The notes beneath the pieces are model-generated. The model saw only the letters and a program-made list of their open reading frames with translations, had not been told where the DNA came from and did no database searches. A program made the translations under genes and the position numbers. A DNA stretch of 64,000 bases from Lytechinus variegatus (lineage: Eukaryota > Echinodermata > Echinoidea > Temnopleuroida > Toxopneustidae). The DNA is taken from contig NC_054751.1 of the NCBI RefSeq assembly GCF_018143015.1, positions 15,175,292-15,239,291 on the forward strand, written 5' to 3'. The first letter of the stretch is position 1. Every line of letters begins with the position of its first letter. Of this stretch, positions 12,841 to 52,212 are shown one piece after another.

Positions 12841-14515
12841 GTCTGGACCCACAGCTGGTTACAATTTGTAACATTAAAAAGTGTCAAATTACACTTACTG
12901 AATCCAACACTTTGTAAATGTTGATATGTAATACTTAAGTTATTAGTGTGTAGCTGTCCTAAGCATTGCCATGGGTTACAAATAATGATTGTACACAAAC
13001 ATCTGTCATTATGTTTTATATTATTCCTGCTATAGGTTTTATTTTTTACTACATGAAACAAAACTTGTAATTTATTGACCATTCTTTTGATCAGAGAAAC
13101 TGTTTAACAATGAACACAGGTCTCAAACAGAGTTCTGAACAATGCTTGTACTTATTGTTTTACCCTTCTTATTGATGTCACCTAATGAATATTCATCATC
13201 CATCGTGCAATCAAAACATTGAATTGCATGTAAATCGGATCCACTTTAGGGCCTAGAGGTACATACACATACTGCTGACCTCACTAAGAATATATTACAC
13301 CAATGATAAGTTCATTCAACACAGATGTCATTTCATCCGTTACTGCAATAAATCTATTTCCTGGGTGAAAAATTTACCTGAAGCTCATATTCATACCTTG
13401 ATTATTAACTGAAATGAGAGGTGATGATTTGTCGCTGCAATTAACTTTAAAGTGAAGTTGTTGTTTTTTAAGCCTTATATTACATCAATGTATTGACTCA
13501 ATGTTAGCAGTGTGAAATACAAAATACATAAAGAGGTACATTTTTCTAACGAAAATATGTATTTGTATTTTGTATGAGCCCTGAATTATTATTTGTATGC
13601 CATTATTTCTTTTGATGTTCATGACAATATGTATTTTGCCTAAAGAGACAAAATTTACAAGTATGAATTCAAAGTTTTATTGGGTTTTCTTTTCACTTTG
13701 ATTAAGCGTTTCTTAGTGATTTTTTTATGGTGGTCTGTTTATAAATTTGTCTTTGTGAAATAACAGGGGCAGTGGAACAGTTTTAAAAGTGTTTGGGTGG
13801 GGGCTGACCATGCAACAAATCAAAATCAGACGATCATTATATTTTTGTACACAGTTTGGGAAAAAGCGGGGGCTGAAGCCCCCCCCCCCCCCCCCCCCCC
13901 CGGTTCTATGGCCCCTGAATAATAGAGTGTATGTTGAGAAAATAGCAATATTGCTCGTGTTTTATGAAGATCAAACTAATATAGTACGCAATATACATTG
14001 TGTTTTTATTTTATTTTTGCAATAAAGTTGATATGATATAATCAGAGCATATTCTGCTGAATTTCTTTTCTGTTTTGTTTTATATTCCAAATGTTGGTTT
14101 CTGATTGGTCAAAAATGAATATGAGGCTTAAAAGTTTTGATCAACATCAGAGTCCCAATGATTGATAGCATGAGGTATGTATATATTGCATTGTAGTGTG
14201 TTGCACTGTGGGCTATCCTAACCATAATAGCACTTAGAAATTTAGTTTCCTAGCATTTGCCTGAATTAGGCCATAATATTTCATTTTTAGAATCTCTCTA
14301 TATTTAGGTTTTTTCTAGTTTTGTAATTTAAAAGTGGAATAATATCCTTGTGATTTCAGTTGAGGAAACTGATAGTTATTTTACAATGCAGAATAAATTC
14401 AGATGCTAACATTCCTCAGCTCCACTTCTGAAAGATGGCTACATCCAAATCACCTGGATATGATAGCCCCATTCACTTATGCTAATTATTTTCTGTCTAA
14501 TTAGTTTAGATTTTT
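12841..14515. other. no gene; poly-C run
   Basis: No coding region recognised. The only notable item is a run of about 23 C at 13879-13901. The rest is AT-rich single-copy-looking sequence. Confidence 0.5.
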
Positions 14516-14519
14516 AATG

Positions 14520-15020
14520 ATAATGGGGGAGAGGAGGAAGAACTGGAGACAAAAGGAAAGATAATGTAGAAAGAGAGGGGGAGAGAAAGAAAAGAAAATG
14601 TTGGAAGAATGTTAGAGTGAAGGAGTGGAGGAGGGAGGGGGGAGCGAAAAAGAAAGAATGTGTGCAGATAGAGGGGGAAAGGACGGGAGGTACCGGTATA
14701 TAGAGAGAGGGAAAAAGCAGAGAAGGGAGGGGAGAGAAAAGGAAAGAGAATGTAGGAAGAGAGAGAAAGTGGGCGAAAGAGGGAAAAGGGGAAGGAAAGA
14801 GAAAGTGACGGAGGGGAAGGGAAAGGAAAGATGGTTTGGGGGGAGAGAGTAAGAAAGAGAAGGGGATTGAATAGGGACTGAAGTGTGGGGAGAGAGAAAG
14901 AAGGGTGAAGAAAATGAAATGTGAAGAGGGGGGGGGGGGAATGGAGGAAAAGAGAAAAGGTGGTGTGATGAGAGGAGAGAAGGGGAAAGAGTGTTGGAAG
15001 AGAGAAGGGAGAGAGGGATG
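14520..15020. repeat. 500-bp polypurine tract
   Basis: The plus strand is almost pure A+G for about 500 bp (GGGAGAGAAAG-type words, irregular, not a clean tandem repeat). The long open frames on either strand here are composition artefacts. Such tracts can form triplex (H-DNA) structures. It ends about 1.4 kb upstream of ERI1. Confidence 0.85.
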
Positions 15021-30295: not shown

Positions 30296-32187
30296 TTAAT
30301 CATCTTCTGTCAGGAATGCTCTGGTGCCACTATCTGGAGATTGGATTCTTTGTTGATGTCTTCTCAGTTTAACCTGCATATGGTATAATATTAACAATGA
30401 TAATTATAGCAAAAGTGGTTCCAGTATACAAAAAGAATGATGTCCTTTATGTCCTCATGAAAGAAAAATATAATTTGAAATAAAACTTTTGGGAAAAATG
30501 ACATTTTAGCCATAATATGTATTGGAGTACATGGAAGAGTAGTCCTTGCCTTACATCACTATGACATCCCATATGCGGCCAATTTGAAATCTCCATGGGT
30601 ATAGTGATTACCAATATTTACAACTTTTAAAAATTCATATCTTTCTTTTTGTTTGTCCAATATTGTTCAAACTTTCACCTATCAACTTGTCTGATTTTCC
30701 TTTTCCTTATAAAAACAAGTTTTTATTTGGGTTGGATTCCCCTTTAAGTAATGTAAACTATGGTGTACCACAGGGATCTGTCCTTGGTCCATTGTTATTT
30801 TTGATTTACATTAATGATATCATCAATTCGTCTCAATTATTTACCTATTCTCTTTTTGCTGACGATACCTGTATATTATATTCTCACAAGAACATTCACA
30901 CTCTTATGCAGTCAGTTAATTCTGAAATTTGTAAACTCTATGCATGGTTTTGTAGTAACAAACTGTTATTAAATACAGGTAAAACACAATGTGTATTATT
31001 TAGGTCTAGAGGGAGGGTAATCCCTAATGATGTTCATCACTTAGTTATTGGCAATGAACAGATCAATTGCAGTCAACATGTGCAATTTCTAGGTGTTACG
31101 GTTGATGAATATGTATCTTGGAAAAACCACCTTGATAATGTATGTACTAAAGTTTCTCGTTGTGTTGGAGTGATATCCAAACTTCGTTATTTCCTCCCCC
31201 AGCAGACACTTGTTACTTTATATAATGCTATTGTCATGCCTCATTTGACGTACTGTAATGTTGCTTGGGGGCACACATATAAGACTCATATACATAAATT
31301 GCAAGTTCTTCAAAGAAAAATTGTTAGATACATAACATATTCGGATTATAGGTCGCCAAGCACTCCTTTGTTTTTACAACTGCAAATTTTACCTTTTGAT
31401 GAATTGGTATCTCTTAACTGTGTCACATTTATGTTTAAGTGTCAATCACGCCAGAATGCATTTTTGTCTCATGTGTTTGTTGAAAATTCTTCCATCCATC
31501 ATTATCATACTCGTCAAAGAAACCTTCTCCATCAGCCATTAGCAAGAACCCAAACTGCTTTAAATTCATTTAGAATAGTTTGTGTTAAAGAATGGAACAA
31601 GTTACCTCATGACATTAGAAATAGCTTGGCTCTGTCCCGATTTAAAACATTGTGTAAAAAGCATCTCTTCGATAGATTGCGGTCGGATGTGAATGTATAA
31701 ATCATGCAGCAGATTGCAATGGGTGAGGTCTCCATGTGTGTGTGAGGGTGTGTGTGTGTGTGTGAGGTGTGTGCGTGCATTTTTAATCGGGTGTGTATGG
31801 GGGGTCATGTGTGTGTTTATTATTAGAGGTTGTCTATACAGGGGTCAAAAAGGGTGGTGTTTCGGTTTTCTTGGGGCTCCTGTTCATTTGATGAGGCCCT
31901 GCTTCATTTAGGCTGTTAATAGGGTTACCCTAGGCAAGCTGAAACATCTCTATTTTATAACCTACCCCTTTTATTATACTGTCAAATCATTTATTCTTAA
32001 GTTACATGTAAGTTACACCCATTGTAAATATGTTACTTACTATGTAAAGGGGCCCCATTAACAAGCTGTGCTTCACTGGGGTCCCAAACCTATCATTCTG
32101 AGTCCTATGATGTTGTATTCTGTACTATTGTTTGTGTTTGATATGGTTTGAAATAAATACTATGCTATGATGATTATCATTATTATA

Positions 32188-32222
<35 letters not shown>

Positions 32223-35200
32223 TGTTCTTATCATTATCATCATTGTTATCATTAATCATTATTATTATTATATGTGACTGATATCTATGATTAATTGCAA
32301 ATGGAGCGTTGTGGCCCAGCGGATTAGTCTTTGGACTTAACAGAGGGTCGTGGGTTCGAATCCCAGCCATGGCGTAATTTCCTTCAGCAAGAAACTGATC
32401 CACAATGTGCTGCACTCAACCCAGGTGAGGTAAATGGGTACGGGTAGGAAGTAATTCCTTAAAAAACTGTGTGCGGCTGTGCGCTATGAACGCCTAGCTA
32501 AGCTGGGATATATAGGAGCGCCTTGAGCACCTAACAAGGTGGATATGTGCGCAATATAAATACCCTATATTATTTTCATTATTGCACTGGGTATTACATA
32601 CGATCAATTGTAAAATTCACCCCACAATCTATCACTAAGACTCATGTCAAGGGATCCAGATTGAAATTAGACCAAATGGTTTAAAAGCATATTGACCAAA
32701 TTGCAGCTTACCTGGAGTTGAAGTTTATTTGTGAAGAACATCTTCTTCCATCCCATTTCCTCAGCCAAAGACCTCATTTCATCTGTGACAGTCGTACCAC
32801 AATGCGTCTCATAGATCTGCTCCCATAATGCCTCTGCACTACAGAGCTAAAGAGAGATGCAAACATTGAGAATGGGAAAAATTTTACTGTTGAAGGCTTA
32901 TAGCTCTTTTCCCCTAAATATATACCGGTAATCAACGTTTTATTTTTGTTAAAATGTACAGTGAAACCTGCATTATGCTCAACCAGTTCTTTCTACAAAG
33001 ACCACCTATCAAAAAGCATCATTTTCTGGTTTTGTTTGGATGGAAAGGAAGGAAGAAGAAAGAAAGAAAGAAAGAAAGAAAGGAGAAGAAGAATCACCTC
33101 ATAAAAACTCTTGCAGGTCTGTGACAGTCTGGCAATATCTTCCAACTCTAAGAATGAGCACATGTAGAGCATCAAAGGTTTGGGAACCCTCATGATATAA
33201 TCAAAACATCCCTTCGATAGGAGCATGGCGTAGTTCAAAACACCTTCACCAAATACTTTGCCAACATCAACTGAAATCAATCAAATACAAATTAAATATA
33301 ATATATCAGACAATTATCACACACAATATCAATATCATAAATATTCAGAAGATATTTAAACAGCATACTACTGAATTTAAATTAGTTAGGGTAACTTAAT
33401 TGATAGAAGAAAACAATCATGCATCATGAGGCTAGCAATGACTGTTTTACACATTCAAATAAATTTGCAGCTAATATAAGTTTGATTGGTTGCCTTGAAA
33501 AAAAGGTTTTTAATTCCATGAACTAAATAATTTTATAATTAGAACTTAGTATAAAAATCAACAACTTTTTTCAATGATATACACATAAAGACAAGTGGAA
33601 TGCCTCTGGCCATCTCACCTGCATCACGCAGTTCAATATAGCAGCAGTGCTGACTTTGAAAACTACTCTAACTTGCACAAGATGTTCAGTGATACATGGT
33701 TACTCTTATGTCCACTTTTTATGGGCTAGACCAATAAACTTACAGAGATATGATGGTTATTCAACAAAAAACCCCAACATGGCCAAAGTTCATTGACCTT
33801 ACATAACCTTTGACCTTGATCATGTGACCTGAAACTCGCACAAGATGTTCAGTGATACTTGATTACTCTTATGTCCAAGTTTCATGAATCAGATCCATAA
33901 ACTTTCAAAGTTATGATGGTAATTCAACAGATACCCCCAATTTGGCCAAAGTTCATTGACCTTTGACCTTGGTCATGTGACCTTAAAATTTGCACAGGAT
34001 ATTCAGTGATGCTTGATTACTATTATGTCCAAGTTTCATGAATCAGATCCATAAACTTTCAAAGTTATGATGGGAGTTCAACAGATACCCCCTATTTGGC
34101 CAAAGTTCATTGACTCTAAATGACCTTCGACCTTAATCATGAGACCTGAAACTCATGCAGGATGTTCAGTGATACTTGATTAACCTTATGTCCAAGTTTC
34201 ATGAACTAGGTCCATATATTTTCTAAGTTATGATGACATTTCAAAAACTTAACCTCAGGTTAAGATTTTGATGTTGATTCCTCCAACATCGTCTAAGTTC
34301 ATTGACCCTAAATGACCTTTGACCTTGGTCATATGACATGAAACTCTAATAGGATGTTCAGTAATACTTGATTAACCTTATGGCCAAGTTTCATGAACTA
34401 GGTCCATATACTTTCTAAGTTATGATGTCATTTCAAAAACTTAACCTCAAGTTAAGATTTGATGTTGACGCCGCCGTCGCCACCACCGTCGGAAAAGCGG
34501 CGCCTATAGTCTCACTTCTGCTATGCAGGTGAGACAAAAACCATGAAAATGTGTAGGAAACCAGGCTTTATTGCATGACATCTATTATTAAGTATAAATT
34601 GAAATACCTTAACAGAACCTTGAAATATTTTAACACTGATTCAGCAAATTGAGAAAATTAAATATAATAAACCCCAATCCTTGCCTTAAATTTTATTTAT
34701 GTTTCATCACTATGATTTAAATACATGCAATAATGCAAGCATGAATATCATACACCATCCAACTAAATAAATATACAAATGAAAATTGGTAATAGTGATA
34801 TCACACAGCAAATTCAAATAAATTTACCACAGAAATATATCAGTATAGACCATGTGATAAAGAGTTTATCACGATGTATAAATTTAGATGAATATACTAA
34901 ATTGAAACTAAATATAAATTTCATAGTAAATCGAAAACATTATATATCATTCATTAGCATACAGAGATTCTACACTTACACTGCATTCTGTCATCATGCT
35001 GAAAGTCTTCCAATGGTTCGATAACTTCACCTGGACTAAGCCTCTTAGCATCATTCCTCAGTGTAATCACCCATGTTCTCCATATCACCTGAACATCAGG
35101 GAGAGAAATAAATCAGAAATTCAGGTGAATATCAAGATATACAGGATGGGAAGACAATTATGAGGCCTGTCCTTTTAAGACACCCCACAGGAGCTGTAAA

Positions 35201-38200
35201 TGATTAGAGATAGAAATAAAGTTGGATCAAGTCTCTCAACTTGATCCAACTTTATGTCCGAGTGTCATGAATGCATGAATCATAAAATGCAGTCTTAGAC
35301 GTTAAGGCTTGTCTTTGAGCCTGCAAATGAGCTTTTACTAAGCAAAAAAAGATAATAAAGGAGTGATGCAGAGGACACAAGTTCGTTGAAGCACCATTTA
35401 CAACAAAATCAACACTTAATAAACCCCTAAAAACAAATTGGAAATCTGAGTTTGGCCATTTATTTCTCCCAACTCCCAATTTTACATAAATATACACAAT
35501 GCATATTTGATATCATTTAAAAGATCACTCAATTCATAACAAAAATGGCCGATCGAGACGGGGGTAGAAGGAGAGAACTTTTCGTTTTTTGAGGTTCCAG
35601 TCTGTGCCCAGATTGCAGATGTCAGAAAAACTGCCACTCGTTACACCATTATCCATATAATCGTGGTAAGTCAGTAGAGGCGCACGGCCAATATTGGAGA
35701 CTGTCTCCCATGAGAGAGATTATCTCCAATATCAGAGACTTTTGTAAAGAATTTGGGTATCCAATTTCAGAGACAGTCTCCAGTTTGGGAGACCAATTTC
35801 CTTTGTTTACATTTGCTGCAAAAGGATTACCTTGGCGGCAAATAAAAATGTGATAAGCAGATTCCTCATGAAAAATCAACCCTTTTCACCGTCTACTTTA
35901 AAAATTCACCGTCTACTTTTGTTTTGATAAGGATTTTTGTTGTCAATCACACACAAAACAAATGGGCTTCTGACCTCAGTGAGACAAAATTCGGGGTGGA
36001 AAAAGTCATGTTTTTGTTGGTGTTGTTTCTTTTGTCCTTTTGCAAAGCAAGTCTCCAATGTGGGAGATTGTCTCCCCTATTGGAGAGAGTCTCCCACATT
36101 GGCCGTGCGCCTTGCCTGGAGGCGTTCTGGGGTAAAAATCATAGTACTATTCGTACCTTTACCCCCTAACGCCTGGCGCTTGGCCCTATAGGGCCGTACG
36201 TCGGGAAGGAAAATGCAACTATACAAATGCACCAAACAGCGCCTTATAATTTGAATCTGATGTTAACACTTCTGTACATGGGTAAAAATATCGGTTAGCA
36301 ACGTTTGGTTATATTAAAATTTAGTGAATAGGAAAAAAATCGCAGAAATGGGATGAAGAAATAAAAGTAGAAGAGAGTTTACTCACATTTGTTGTCTTCG
36401 CCATCTTGGATCCATTGTTAATGCAACCTAGTTACGTGACGCTTATAGAGGGCGGCAAAATCAAGTGCTAAAATGTCCCGCTTCAACCACAGCTGAACCA
36501 GGGGGGTGTTTCATCAATATTGTCGCGCGAGAACTATCAGCGCTGACAGTTGTTGCGCGACAATACTGATGAAACACCCCCCTGGTTCAGTGGTTGAAGC
36601 GGGACATTTTAGCACTTGATTTTGCCGCCCTCTATTAGCGTCACGTAACTAGGTTGCATTAACAATGGATCCAAGATGGCGAAGACAACAAATGTGAGTA
36701 AACTCTCTTCTACTTTTATTTCTTCATCCCATTTCTGCGATTTTTTTCCTATTCACTAAATTTTAATATAACCAAACGTTGCTAACCGATATTTTTACCC
36801 ATGTACAGAAGTGTTAACGTCAGATTCAAATAATAAGGCGCTGTTTGGTGCATTTGTATAGTTGCATTTTCCTTCCCGACGTACGGCCCTATAGGGCCAA
36901 GCACCAGGCGTTAGGGGGTAAAGGTACGAATAGTACTATGATTTTTACCACAGAACGCCTCCAGGCTACACTCATGGTTTCAAATCGTCTCGTGTGTGAA
37001 GGATTCATATGCACCTGGTGCACGCGAATCTTTCACACCATTTTTACTAAAATAACTATGACTTTACATCATAGCTATGAATCATGATTTTTCTATAACA
37101 CTTACCGAACCATATGGATTGTTTGTTGAATTCTTTTTGTTGTTTGTTTTAATAAAATAAGAGCATTTTTCGTGATCTTCACGTAGATGCCTCTTGGTCA
37201 GCGTTGATATCAACTTTTGCCTAAAGAGGGCGCGCGATATTATTCACCAAGCCGGTAGGCACTTAAGAACCAAGTTTGAAAGGATACTCGTAAAATTATG
37301 TCACTCTCGCCGATGAATATTCATTAGATCGTGGTCGTGCGTGTTCAATACACACCGAGTGCATGCATGCAGAGAGTTTGTATTGAACACGCAAAACCGG
37401 ATCTAATGAATATTCATCGCGAGAGTGACATAATTTTACGAGTGTCCTTTCAAACTTGGTTCTTAAGTGCCTACCGTACCTTTGTTTACGGTGTTGCAAG
37501 CTAGCTGCATTCTAGGCGATCAGCATTATTTTCTTGCTCGTTCAATCCACTTTCATCATCATCTTGTCAAAAGATGGCGTACTTTACCAATTTCAGTATA
37601 TACATGAGATGCAACCTGTTGATTTTTGGTACAATTTCCTATTACGCGCTGACGACTTGAATTGAGAATGTTCGATACGAAAAATTGCTTTTCGATTGTT
37701 GTTTGCGTACTTTCCACCGCAGTATTAAGGACGGATCGAACGGAGTATCCTGGTTGAGACTTGGAGGTAAGCGATAAAAACAGTTTTATAAATAATTTCC
37801 AATTCATTTTTTTTTTTAAAACTAAAACTATTAAAAAGAAATCATTAGTGGAGAAATACTGAAACGTTTGGCGTTTTTTATTCCCTCACATTCGTGTGAT
37901 GAACGAAAACGTCAAAGTCCACTATGAAACCACATGCGTTGTGCGAGGTTAGTATTACTAACCTCGCATGTTGTGTGAGTGCCAGGCTACGTGCGCCTCT
38001 ACTGTGTAAGTGCTTGATCATGTTGATTCCCGTTTTAACTATTTATTCGGAGAATTATTTTGACCATACTTCACGCTTGTCAGGTGAGTATGCCAAATTG
38101 CACGTACGATCTTGGGCTCCCGCCCGCGTAGCGGGCGGGAGTTCCTTGGGTTAGGGCTAGGCTTGACTTGAGAGGTGCTCACCGATCGTCGACTACTTTC

Positions 38201-38429
38201 AATAACACACATTGAACTCAATATATGGGACTTAATAATATTGTTAAAAAGTCTAGCTCGCATTTACAATAATTTTCCATGCAAAATACGTATTTATGTA
38301 TAAAATGTTTAATATCATGAATCTTACTTCAGTTGTGGTTATCTTGAATTCGTGAAAATTCTTCGAAGGTGAAGGAGCTTGGCCAGTAAGGTCAAGAAGG
38401 ACACCGTCTTTTGGAAGAAGGGACGCCAT
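30296..38429 (-). CDS. FBXO36: F-box only protein 36
   Basis: Five coding exons on the minus strand: 38429-38328, 35088-34980, 33270-33098, 32846-32712, 30373-30296. All have GT/AG borders and consistent phases, giving 198 aa; human FBXO36 is 188. Visible family blocks: MASLLPKDG start and APSPSKNFHEF (exon 1), VIWRTWVITLR and SPGEVIEPLEDF (exon 2), the F-box at about 94-138 with FLELEDIARLSQTCKSFYE (exons 3-4), ALWEQIYETHCGT, EEMGWKKMFFTNKLQLQ (exon 4) and a basic tail VKLRRHQQRIQ (exon 5). F-box proteins bring substrates to SCF ubiquitin ligases; no substrate is inferable here. The frame stays open upstream of the ATG to an acceptor near 38498, so an upstream coding exon is possible. Intron 1 contains a large palindrome. 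Confidence 0.92.
30740..32270 (+). mobile_element. jockey-superfamily LINE (CR1/L2-like), 5'-truncated
   Basis: An open frame encodes the second half of a reverse transcriptase: [20 protein letters not shown], the catalytic FADDTCIL, then NTGKTQCVLFRSRG, FLGVTVDEYVSWKNHLD and LPHDIRNSLALSRFK, ending at about 31699. A 3' UTR of ~450 bp follows and ends in an ATT/ATC microsatellite near 32170-32270. The remaining frame has no stops, so the copy is fairly young. It lies in FBXO36 intron 4, antisense to the gene. Confidence 0.88.
32304..32575 (+). mobile_element. tRNA-derived SINE
   Basis: The head looks like a tRNA: an A-box region (GTGGCCCAGCGGATTAGTC) and a B box (GGGTTCGAATCCC). A body with TTCCTTCAGCAAGAAACTGA follows, and the tail has GCGCAATATAAATACC then a TTATTTTCATTATT stretch. 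The tail resembles the 3' end of the CR1/L2-like LINE at 23866. Lies in FBXO36 intron 4. Confidence 0.85.
33614..34533. mobile_element. TIR element with internal minisatellite (GATGTTCAGTGATAC type)
   Basis: Ends TCTCACCTGCA and TGCAGGTGAGA. The interior repeats a unit of about 150-180 bp in five or so copies, marked by GATGTTCAGTGATACTTG, GTCCAAGTTTCATGAA and CATTGACC..TGACCTTTGACC. A GC-rich GCCGCCGTCGCC patch precedes the right end. Lies in FBXO36 intron 2. Confidence 0.85.
35216..35255. repeat. perfect 16-bp hairpin in FBXO36 intron 1
   Basis: ATAAAGTTGGATCAAG, an eight-base loop, then CTTGATCCAACTTTAT. Perfect pairing over the whole stem. Confidence 0.75.
35679..36112. mobile_element. 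foldback MITE abutting the palindrome
   Basis: Ends GGCGCACGGCCAAT and ATTGGCCGTGCGCC, with inner GGAGAC / GTCTCC symmetry repeated several times (TGTCTCCCA, GAGAGTCTCC). It ends within two bases of the large palindrome. No convincing target duplication. Confidence 0.75.
36387..36404 (-). CDS. possible alternative first exon of FBXO36 (left palindrome arm)
   Basis: The minus-strand ATG at 36404 (context CCAAGATGG) opens MAKTTN and meets a donor gtgagt in phase 0. The next FBXO36 acceptor (exon 2 at 35088) is also phase 0, so splicing would give MAKTTN-VIWRTW. The normal exon 1 ends ITTTE before the same VIWRTW. This would be a shorter isoform driven from the palindrome. Compatible by phase only; no transcript evidence. 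Confidence 0.35.
36676..36693 (+). CDS. mirror copy of the MAKTTN exon (right palindrome arm)
   Basis: Same ATG, six codons and gtgagt donor on the plus strand. It points away from FBXO36 and I found no convincing downstream partner exon. Possibly a decoy created by the inverted duplication, or half of a bidirectional promoter. Confidence 0.25.
37253..37476. mobile_element. foldback MITE, ~97-bp arms
   Basis: CGGTAGGCACTTAAGAACC at the left end and its complement at the right. Pairing continues through AAAATTATGTCACTCTCG and ATGAATATTCAT to GCGTGTTCAATA around a ~30-base centre. Confidence 0.88.
37943..37967. repeat. 11-bp hairpin
   Basis: GCGAGGTTAGT-ATT-ACTAACCTCGC, perfect. Within FBXO36 intron 1. 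Confidence 0.7.
38117..38141. repeat. all-GC 11-bp hairpin
   Basis: CTCCCGCCCGC-GTA-GCGGGCGGGAG, perfect and very stable, in otherwise AT-rich intron 1 sequence close to FBXO36 exon 1. Confidence 0.75.
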
Positions 38430-40544: not shown

Positions 40545-42245
40545 CGCCAATGGTATTTGAATGGTGCCGAATGGTAGTTGAATGGTGGTCTGAATGGTAA
40601 ATGGTACGCGAATGGTATTTAAGTGGTGTTTCAATGGTAAGTTCTTAATGGTAATTGGTAGTTTATTCAATGGTAAATGGTATACCATATACCCAATGGT
40701 GTCTCAGTGGTATGTGTCTAATGGTATGATTAGTATGATGAATGGTATACCATACACCCAACGGTGTCTCAGTGGTATTCAATGGTGTCTCAGTGGTATG
40801 TGCTTGTAATGGTATGATTGGTATGATGAATAGTATACCATACACCCAATGGTGTCTCAGTGGTATACAATGGTGTCTCAGTGGTATTCAATGGTGTATC
40901 AGTAGTATGTGCCTGTAATAGTATGATTGGTATACCATACACCCAATGGTGTCTCAGTGGTATTCAATAGTGTCTCAGTAGTATGTGCCTCTAATGGTTT
41001 GACTGGTATACCATACACCCAATGGTGTCTCAGTGGTGTACAATGGTGTCTCAGTGGTATTCAATGGTGTCTCAGTGGTATTCAATGGTGTCTCAGTAGT
41101 ATGTGCCTCTATAATGGTATGATGAATGGTATACCATACACCCAATGGTGTCTCAGTGGTATACAATGGTGTCTCAGTGGTGGTCAATGGTGTCTCAATA
41201 GTATGTGCCTCTAATGGTTTGACTGGTATACCATACACCCAATGGTGTCTCAGTGGTGTACAATGGTGTCTCAGTGGTATTCAATGGTGTCTCAGTAGTA
41301 TGTGCCTCTATAATGGTATGATGAATGGTATACCATACACCCAATGGTGTCTCAGTGGTATTCAATAGTGTCTTAGTACTATGTGCCTCTAATGGTTTGA
41401 CTGGTATACCATACACCCAATGGTGTCTCATTGGTGTACAATGGTGTCTCAGTGGTATTCAATGGTGTCTCAGTAGTATGTGCCTCTATAATGGTATGAT
41501 GAATGGTATACCATACACCCAATGGTGTCTCAGTGGTATTCAATAGTGTCTTAGTACTATGTGCCTCTAATGGTTTGACTGGTATACCATACACCCAATG
41601 GTGTCTCATTGGTGTACAATGGTGTCTCAGTGGTATTCAATGGTGTCTCAGTAGTATGTGCCTCTATAATGGTATGATGAATGGTATACCATACACCCAA
41701 TGGTGTCTCAGTGGTATACAATTGTGTCTCAGTGGTATACAATGGTGTCTCAGTGGTGGTCAATGGTGTCTCAGTAGTATGTGCCTCTATAATGGTATGA
41801 TGAATGGTATACCATACACCCAATGGTGTCTCAGTGGTATACAATGGTGTCTCAGTGGTATTCAATGGTGTCTCAGTAGTATGTGCCTCTATAATGGTAT
41901 GATGAATGGTATACCATACACCCAATGGTGTCTCAGTGGTATACAATGTTGTCTCAGTGATATTCAATAGTGTGTCAGTAGTATGTGCCGCTATAGTGGT
42001 ATGACTGGTATGGTGAATGGTACACCATATACTCAATGGTGTCTCAGTGATATCCAATAGTCTCAGTGGCATATGCCTAATGATATGATTGGTATCAATG
42101 GTATACCATATGCCCAATATTGTGTCTTAGTAGTATGTGCCTAGTGGTATAATCATTGGATAGTTGTTGGATAATTGTAATGCCATAGTGGCTTAGTGGT
42201 GTGTGCCTAATGAATGTCATTTGTGTTAATGGAGAATGGTATGCC
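40545..42245. repeat. AATGGT minisatellite array with 178-bp higher-order repeat
   Basis: The motif AATGGTGTCTCAGTGGTATNC and the hinge GGTATACCATACACCC recur throughout. From about 41100 to 41970 they are organised into larger units; the segment starting at 41325 recurs at 41503, a 178-bp period, with near identity including shared variants such as TGTCTTAGTACTATG. The long open frames here on both strands arise only from the repeat. Confidence 0.92.
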
Positions 42246-50474: not shown

Positions 50475-51110
50475 CCATGTGAAGGCTATCACACATTTTG
50501 AGTTTAATCTTCGAAATTTGGTGTTCATTAGTTTGTTGTCCAAACTCTGTCTTACATGTAAATTTGTTTATAGGAAGTTTAACATAATATTTATGTGGAG
50601 TGCAATCATTGATCTCTTGTGGAGTCGCACAGTCACATGTATTCATAATATGGTGCTTTTATGCCATACCTGTCAATACTCTTTTGTACTTGAACTTATT
50701 AGTAAAAAATGTGTATTAATGTCGTTGAAAGCAATTACACATAACAGATTTAACATCAAGTTTATTGTATTACAAGTATCAGGTTTGTATGCAGAACAGT
50801 GGTTTTGCCAAGTACTCAATCCATGTAAAAAGCAATATGAGAGAACAGGTTTATTCTTGGAAATGTTAGTCTTCATTTGTTGTGTTTTTCAATCAAACTC
50901 TGTCTTGATGCATGTTTATTTTTAGATAACAAGATTGACAGAGTATAGATATCAACGAGTAGCTAAGTCATATTTATTAATAACTTATGTGCTTTATTAT
51001 AAAGTCTATACTTGTGAATACTCTGTGCCATTTATGCTGTACTTAAACTTCTTATAGTAAAAACATTTTATTGACGTTCTTGAAATAAGTAACTGTTTTC
51101 ATTTTTTTTT
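50475..51110. repeat. diverged tandem repeat, ~300-bp unit
   Basis: Blocks recur in order: GAAGGCTATCACACATTTTG / GAAAGCAATTACACATAACA, TTTTGTACTTGAACTTATTAG / TGCTGTACTTAAACTTCTTA and AATGTCGTTGAAAGCA / GACGTTCTTGAAATAAG. A 148-codon frame runs across it on the plus strand but is itself repetitive, so I do not call it a gene. Confidence 0.5.
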
Positions 51111-51139
51111 CTTGTGTATACTTATTCCATTATTAAGCC

Positions 51140-52212
51140 TACCATTAACCCCAGAGATATGCTGTTCACCATTGGTCTACCATTCACTGTACTTTATTGG
51201 CCTACTATACATTGCACATCGTTGTTCTACTGTCTACCATTCAGTGTAAACCATTGGTCTACCATTGAATTTACACTTGTGGTCTATAGTGTATGACCAA
51301 TGATGTTATTTGAATGGTTGACTAATAGTATAGTGTGTATGACAGTGTTGTATGGTAAATGGTAGGTCAATGGTGTACAGTGTATGGTAAGCCAATGGTG
51401 TATGGTAAGCCTATGGTGTACGGTGAATAGTAGTTCAATGGTGTATGGTAGGCCAATGGTGCACTGTAAATGGTAGGTCAATGGTATACGGTGTATGGTA
51501 GAATGGTGTAAAGTGAATGGTCAATCAATGGTGAACGGTGTGTGGTGTACGACGAATGGTAGTTGAATGGTGTATGGTGAGCAGTGAATGGTACACGAAT
51601 GGTGTACGGCGAATGGTGTACGGTGAATGGTGTACAGTGAATGGTACGCGAATGGTGTACGACGAATGGTAGTTGAATGGTGTATGGTGAGCGGTGAATG
51701 GTACACGAATGGTGTACGGCGAATGGTGTACGGTGAATGGTACGCGAATGGTGTAAAGTGAATGGTACGCGAATGGTATACGATGAATGGTACACGAATG
51801 GTATATGGTGAATGGTACACGAATGGTGTATGTTGAATGGTAGGCGAATGGTGTAAGGTAATTGGTAGGCCAATGGTGTCCAGTGAATGGTGGCTGAATG
51901 GTAAATGGTAGGCCAGTGAATGGTGGCTGAATGGTGAATGGTGGTCAATGGTAAACCTGTCTATAGTGGCCATATGGTAGATCAATGGTGAATGGTGTTT
52001 GATCAATGGTATATGAATGGTAAATGGTGCTCATGAATATGGTAATAGTAACGTCCGAATTATTTAAATTAGTTTGAATGGTATACCATTGAGGCTTGAA
52101 TGGTATACCATTGGTGTATGGTGGGTGCTGTGCGAATGGTATTCCAATGGTATATCAATGGTGTATGATAAATGGTAGTCAATGGTATACCATTCAATTT
52201 TTTTTATAAGGG
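51140..52212. repeat. second AATGGT minisatellite array, with orientation switch
   Basis: From about 51300 to 52200 the plus strand repeats words such as GAATGGTGTACGGTGAATGG and GGTACGCGAATGGTGTA. From 51140 to about 51290 the same motif appears reversed (CTACCATTCACTGTA, ACCATTGGTCTACCATT), so the array is a head-to-head structure with its centre near 51295. It abuts the right R repeat. Confidence 0.88.

Follow-up and report, generated by a model that had tools for sequence, protein, structure and literature searches.

The window (the whole stretch of DNA that was analysed, 64 kb) contains a long palindrome within a gene that we call FBXO36-like, on the basis of its F-box and of what we take to be its counterpart, the human protein FBXO36. 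The palindrome is located in intron 1 of this gene, since it lies between exon 1 (38429-38328, minus strand) and an open frame encoding the F-box (32996-33280, minus strand). Exon 2 was looked for and not found. The features of the locus are the following (positions in the window).

32996..33280, minus strand: open frame with the F-box of the FBXO36-like gene (F-box E 1.4e-06; limits of the frame, not of an exon)
35678..36112, no strand: small inverted-repeat element of 435 bp with 64-nt inverted repeats (ends AGGCGCACGGCC...; AGGCGCACGGCCAAT...)
36112..36968, no strand: whole copy of a palindromic transposon, family 1, subfamily A (limits set by comparison with other copies)
36114..36540, minus strand: left arm; its block faces outward along the minus strand, the sense strand of the FBXO36-like gene
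36349..36488, minus strand: conserved block of the left arm (arm 236-375), with a CRE-like motif GCGTCACGTAA, ATGs, mini-exon, donor and about 35 nt beyond
36386..36404, minus strand: putative mini-exon from the second ATG (36404) to the donor GTGAGT (from 36386), MAKTTN, phase 0
36541..36542, no strand: palindrome centre (CG), 2 bp
36543..36966, plus strand: right arm, its block directed outward on the plus strand
36676..36694, plus strand: putative mini-exon from the second ATG (36676) to the donor GTGAGT (from 36694), MAKTTN, phase 0
38328..38429, minus strand: exon 1 of the FBXO36-like gene (MASLLPKDG...TTTE, then GTAAGA), phase 0

The two arms are 97.9% alike (nine substitutions and three gap columns) and form the longest inverted repeat in the window (arms of at least 60 nt, at most 3 kb apart). 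Inverted-repeat detection delimited arms at 36103-36490 and 36590-36977 (97% complementary) and an inner pair at 36493-36541 and 36542-36590 (92% complementary). The predicted RNA folds as one hairpin at -784 kcal/mol, the mean of 20 shuffled sequences being -223. No open frame of more than 107 aa overlaps the 857-bp palindrome, which thus has no coding capacity for a transposase. The small inverted-repeat element at 35678-36112 directly adjoins its left end, their limits overlapping by one base, and to its right, nested inverted repeats (58 nt, 98%) form a small hairpin element at 37253-37476. Elsewhere in the window are found a reverse-transcriptase ORF (30588-31697, plus strand; Pfam RVT_1, E 5.2e-12), probably from a LINE-like remnant, a repetitive stretch in which both strands carry long open frames (40594-42126; MVYHTPNGVSVV... 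/ IPLRHH...) and two kilobases whose GC skew is strong and well above that of most others (14001-15000, 0.56; 51001-52000, 0.40).

Each arm carries a block of about 120-140 bp with motifs that we take to be a CRE-like site and a YY1/ATG-like site, followed by a splice donor located 56 nt from the CRE-like site, all facing outward. Judging from these motifs, the block would be a promoter with a spliced first exon. The minus-strand mini-exon runs in the direction of the FBXO36-like gene, and both MAKTTN/GTGAGT and the TTTE/GTAAGA end of exon 1 are in phase 0. An earlier ATG in the arm exon (ACAATGGATCC; ACAATGG) opens another, out-of-phase frame, so that this agreement holds only with the second ATG. 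The preliminary description had correctly recognized a near-perfect palindrome in intron 1 of this gene, with a CRE-like site, a YY1-like ATG and a donor in each arm (ATG 36676 and donor 36694 on the plus strand, ATG 36404 and donor 36386 on the minus strand). Its proposal that the minus-strand exon could splice in phase to the gene is right as to phase but depends on the use of the second ATG. The cassette was not duplicated from FBXO36, as that description had also suggested, since exon 1 of the FBXO36-like gene has no likeness to the arm exon beyond ATGGCG.

The palindrome has many relatives in the genome (869.6 Mb searched, 33 contigs). This genome is that of a sea urchin, since the sea-urchin protein bindin matches it at E 4e-66 and matches none of 14 control genomes. 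The arm gave at least 78 matches (40 of 225 candidates scored), an end pattern 124 matches (at most two mismatches) and an exon/donor pattern 178 (at most three mismatches), with no match for either control pattern. A chance origin is excluded by this recurrence, together with the rank of the palindrome as the longest inverted repeat of the window. Among 33 tabulated loci, 13 have two essentially full arms, nine have both arms with an internal insertion or deletion (the far end of L067 coming from the end-pattern search) and 11 show a single end within the DNA examined. The ends are constant inverted repeats, TAGCC...GGCTA; the window copy reads TTGCC...GGCTA, its first two bases being TT, not TA. 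An 8-bp target duplication (at least seven of eight letters) flanks 20 of the 25 two-ended copies tested and none of 600 mismatched pairings of flanks. The copies lacking it are the window copy (2/8), L002 (6/8), L075 (5/8), L076 (2/8) and L019 (1/8). Correction of end coordinates raises the count to 21/25 by adding L075 (7/8, in a G run) and brings L076 to 6/8; L019, whose left end is disturbed, stays at 1/8. The dinucleotide TA was considered as the target duplication and discarded, since it belongs to the transposon itself, whose duplications measure 8 bp. No letter differs over 415 positions between the left arm of L040 (contig C11) and that of L055 (C5), which indicates recent movement. 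A subfamily-B copy (L072, 1183-1600) is located just upstream of an exon presumably belonging to a gene for the copper chaperone ATOX1, with its block antisense.

Dispersed copies and 8-bp target duplications demonstrate the mobility of family 1, and the window palindrome is a copy of this dispersed non-autonomous foldback/MITE-type DNA transposon. The window copy itself lacks a target duplication and its left end is altered, so that its own arrival is undocumented. The missing duplication, and the agreement of position and phase with FBXO36 intron 1, would be in keeping with a private and recent inversion of a host promoter and exon within the intron of the FBXO36-like gene, the unique event initially proposed. 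The existence of dozens of other copies, 20/25 of those tested being flanked by target duplications, refutes this reading, and past ATGGCG exon 1 does not resemble the arm exon; many dispersed copies had been named beforehand as the observation that would refute it. The ordinary MITE that had been offered instead agrees with the dispersal but understates the element, whose outward block is conserved in the moving lineage (see below). A fold-back artefact of the assembly is very unlikely as the source of the family, since the element occurs in many places, each with its own target duplication, and unlikely at the window copy, since its two arms differ.

The pattern of variation along the arm was analysed by counting separately the variants common to several copies, which record selection on the source lineage, and those private to one copy, which record selection on inserted copies. 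The cleaned set only includes copies picked by full-arm or end matches. In subfamily A (33 copies), shared-variant sites amount to 0/122 in the block and 44/247 outside (p 7e-9), and private letters to 8/4023 and 26/8116 (p 0.28). In subfamily B (18 copies), the corresponding values are 11/142 and 75/249 (p 1e-7) for shared sites, and 57/2408 and 81/4363 (p 0.18) for private letters. Subfamily B was first found by the exon pattern, which favours copies with that 30-nt exon; removal of the 30 exon letters leaves the same picture (shared sites in the block: 0/92 in A, 7/112 in B). The consensus sequences of A and B differ at 5/140 positions of the block and 53/205 outside (arm 151-180, with 0/30 differences, is omitted from both counts). 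The donor GT is nearly invariant (G 59/60 and T 60/60 in A, 30/30 and 30/30 in B). The copies compared are the best matches of the searches, and more distant relatives without the block are possible. Since shared variants are depleted in the block and private variants do not differ significantly, the constraint bears mainly on the transposing lineage: the block is conserved there and not, or much less so, in inserted copies.

Other sources of this conservation are conceivable: transposase binding, a promoter maintained by an autonomous relative that has escaped notice, or gene conversion among the copies. Gene conversion or recombination between the copies of a plain palindromic MITE would lower variation in the block irrespective of any function. 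Within a copy, the two arms often resemble each other to the degree seen between copies (of 31 within-copy pairs, only five have arms nearer to one another than to every other copy). Furthermore, a less clean set (35 + 23 copies), which gives the same result for shared variants, also has fewer private letters in the block of A (9/4204 against 43/8607 outside, p 0.017); some loci of this set, as of an early conservation table, were chosen by their identity to the block itself, and the cleaned set is relied on for this reason. However, conversion should erase private variants of the block too, whereas in the cleaned set those of A do not differ significantly and those of B are slightly more frequent in the block. 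We therefore regard this explanation as very improbable.

A second palindromic family (TAGTCTTGAGGACG..., about 890 bp) is nested in two family-1 elements (L107, 362-1264; L059, 327-1214). Its end pattern has 1014 matches and its donor pattern 514, with none for the controls. Each arm carries, reading outward, the CRE-like motif TACGTCAT, a short exon-like stretch and a GTAAGA donor 88 nt on. Target duplications are 9 bp long in L107 and 8 bp in L059. A 9-bp duplication is also found where two family-2 ends lie 5.65 kb apart (C1:78029155-78034807; L109, L111, L112) between identical flanks GTGTTACTA. This structure is either a long unit or the result of a later central insertion; the identical flanks imply that units with a long interior exist or arise by later insertion. 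Compared with the older relative L104, family 2 is identical at 159/176 positions of arm 181-360 and 198/249 of the rest (p 0.003), and compared with L028, at 237/239 positions of arm 181-420 and 180/201 of the rest (p 4e-6), the limits of these regions being unequal between the two comparisons and set after viewing the table. No such contrast appears with a third relative, L053, which aligns in its inner part only. Another palindrome was observed in L105 (2232-2970; 763 bp aligned, 85%), with a donor-like GGTGAGA directed outward in its arms. This motif is too weak, and L105 was rejected as a third example of an outward block.

The second family bears on the proposal that the block is kept as DNA for the transposition machinery, as a subterminal binding region for the transposase or a host factor, its promoter and donor motifs being incidental. 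A constraint acting mainly on the moving lineage would suit such a role, and arm 151-180 is also conserved although it does not look like a promoter. Nevertheless, 140 bp is long for a binding site, the donor letters are nearly invariant, and a CRE-like site precedes an outward donor in both families (by 56 and 88 nt), although their sequences differ. These data make a binding function an unlikely reason for the conservation.

No transposase linked to the palindrome ends was found by comparing hAT and MULE domains with listed ends and by analysing the ORFs of the 5.65-kb structure. The genome has 63 hAT-domain matches, the nearest 37 kb from a listed end (63 family-1 ends and 34 family-2 ends, the latter on one contig), and 31 MULE-domain matches, the nearest 69 kb from a listed family-1 place (63 family-1 ends and 32 B places). 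In the 3,001 bp read of the 5.65-kb structure (L109), eight of the nine ORFs of at least 70 aa have no transposase domain, the best match being Erf4 (E 0.04). Several loci were considered as autonomous or parental elements and discarded. L069, L070, L071 and L081 are palindromes split by insertions; L077 contains both ends too, its arm pieces being separated by a long insert; L110 is an arm without outer end. L037, L078 and L079 (the GACCAC subgroup) have both flanks in common and thus represent one insertion inside another repeat, not a longer parent.

An autonomous partner would nevertheless account for the block if the latter were the promoter and first exon of its transposase gene, the palindromes being fold-back internal-deletion derivatives that were made repeatedly and have no outward function. 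A promoter, a start exon and a donor are what would be expected where a spliced transposase gene begins; the centre differs between the A and B palindromes, which may thus have arisen more than once, and the second family carries its own block. On the other hand, the exon of the palindromes reads toward the terminus, and an unsystematic inspection of the fetched copies recognized no transposase. Moreover, A and B align over the whole arm without a kilobase gap, so that their common ancestor probably already had no gene there, and the block was kept after the split. This scenario is rather improbable.

By its dispersed copies, inverted-repeat ends, target duplication and lack of coding capacity, family 1 belongs to the non-autonomous TIR transposons. 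It resembles hAT elements by its 8-bp target duplication (8, 9 and 9 bp in three family-2 cases) and by ends that begin with TAG. However, hAT TIRs have the form YARNG, typically with G as fifth base, whereas the fifth base of TAGCC is C, and no hAT-domain match is closer than 37 kb to a listed end. The TU foldback elements of sea urchin also have long inverted repeats and an 8-bp target duplication, but their repeats consist of short tandem units, unlike the family-1 arms. Copies of Galileo are made mainly of terminal repeats. This element of the P superfamily has long, structurally dynamic inverted repeats, one-repeat copies and target duplications of 7, rarely 8 bp, with the consensus GTATTAC (PMC4168063). 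Family 1 shares with it the long inverted repeats, the one-repeat copies and the short target duplications; its own duplications are 8 bp long, do not fit GTATTAC and are mostly C/G-edged, and the passages on Galileo mention no outward promoter/exon block (PMC4168063). The CERP2 and CELE2 MITEs of Caenorhabditis, co-opted as germline promoters of host genes, hold promoter motifs in their inverted repeats, divergent in CERP2 (PMC9757741). The conservation reported in the passages on these elements is that of co-opted promoters across species (PMC9757741), whereas in family 1 the constraint bears on the transposing lineage and inserted copies drift; each family-1 arm also adds a putative start-codon exon and a donor, a distinction drawn from the published description. 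The portions of the open-licence literature that were searched describe neither this family nor the conservation of a MITE promoter/exon at the level of the element.

Taken together, family 1 is best explained as a non-autonomous foldback/MITE-type transposon that keeps an outward promoter/exon block because this block aids its propagation, an explanation that we consider moderately probable. The following model can be proposed. A transposase encoded elsewhere would move the palindrome in trans. Going outward from the centre, each arm holds a compact region resembling a promoter (CRE-like, YY1/ATG-like), then a short putative start exon, a donor and the terminal repeat. As the element is symmetrical, one of its two blocks is always in the sense orientation in an intron, whichever way the element has inserted. 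Outward transcription would be what selection keeps. The benefit might be that the element is held in open chromatin in germ cells; alternatively, interrupted genes might stay transcribed with the hairpin excluded from their RNA. More tentatively, the palindromic transposons of this genome may be symmetrical portable promoter-exon cassettes selected for outward transcription and splicing, on which at least two families would have converged, a generalization that is conceivable but doubtful.

MITEs are commonly regarded as passive parasites, with an interior that can drift freely. In family 1, an interior block is conserved during the phase in which one copy produces others, and drifts once a copy has inserted. 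Were this block truly an outward promoter with an exon, selection at the level of the element would favour transcription into neighbouring genes. This would explain, directly and in a way that can be tested, why certain transposons continue to provide new promoters and first exons, and could explain the persistence of the palindromic form, which works in both orientations.

Some copies of family 1 are one-sided. Within the DNA examined, none of the 12 tested has an exact far target duplication, and a one-mismatch 8-mer is present somewhere in four of them. Among nine one-sided copies with a simple break past the centre (read by eye), eight stop within 36 nt of it (L007, L008, L011, L021, L026, L036, L054 and L068), a clustering with p 2.6e-8 under uniform breakage; this count leaves out L037, broken before the centre, and L052, which is complex. 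Several breaks are located about 28-34 nt beyond the centre. Palindromes extruded as cruciforms can break at their centre, and the one-sided breaks fit such a process with a preferred spot. Deletions in L020 and L028 likewise fall within the centre-proximal cluster.
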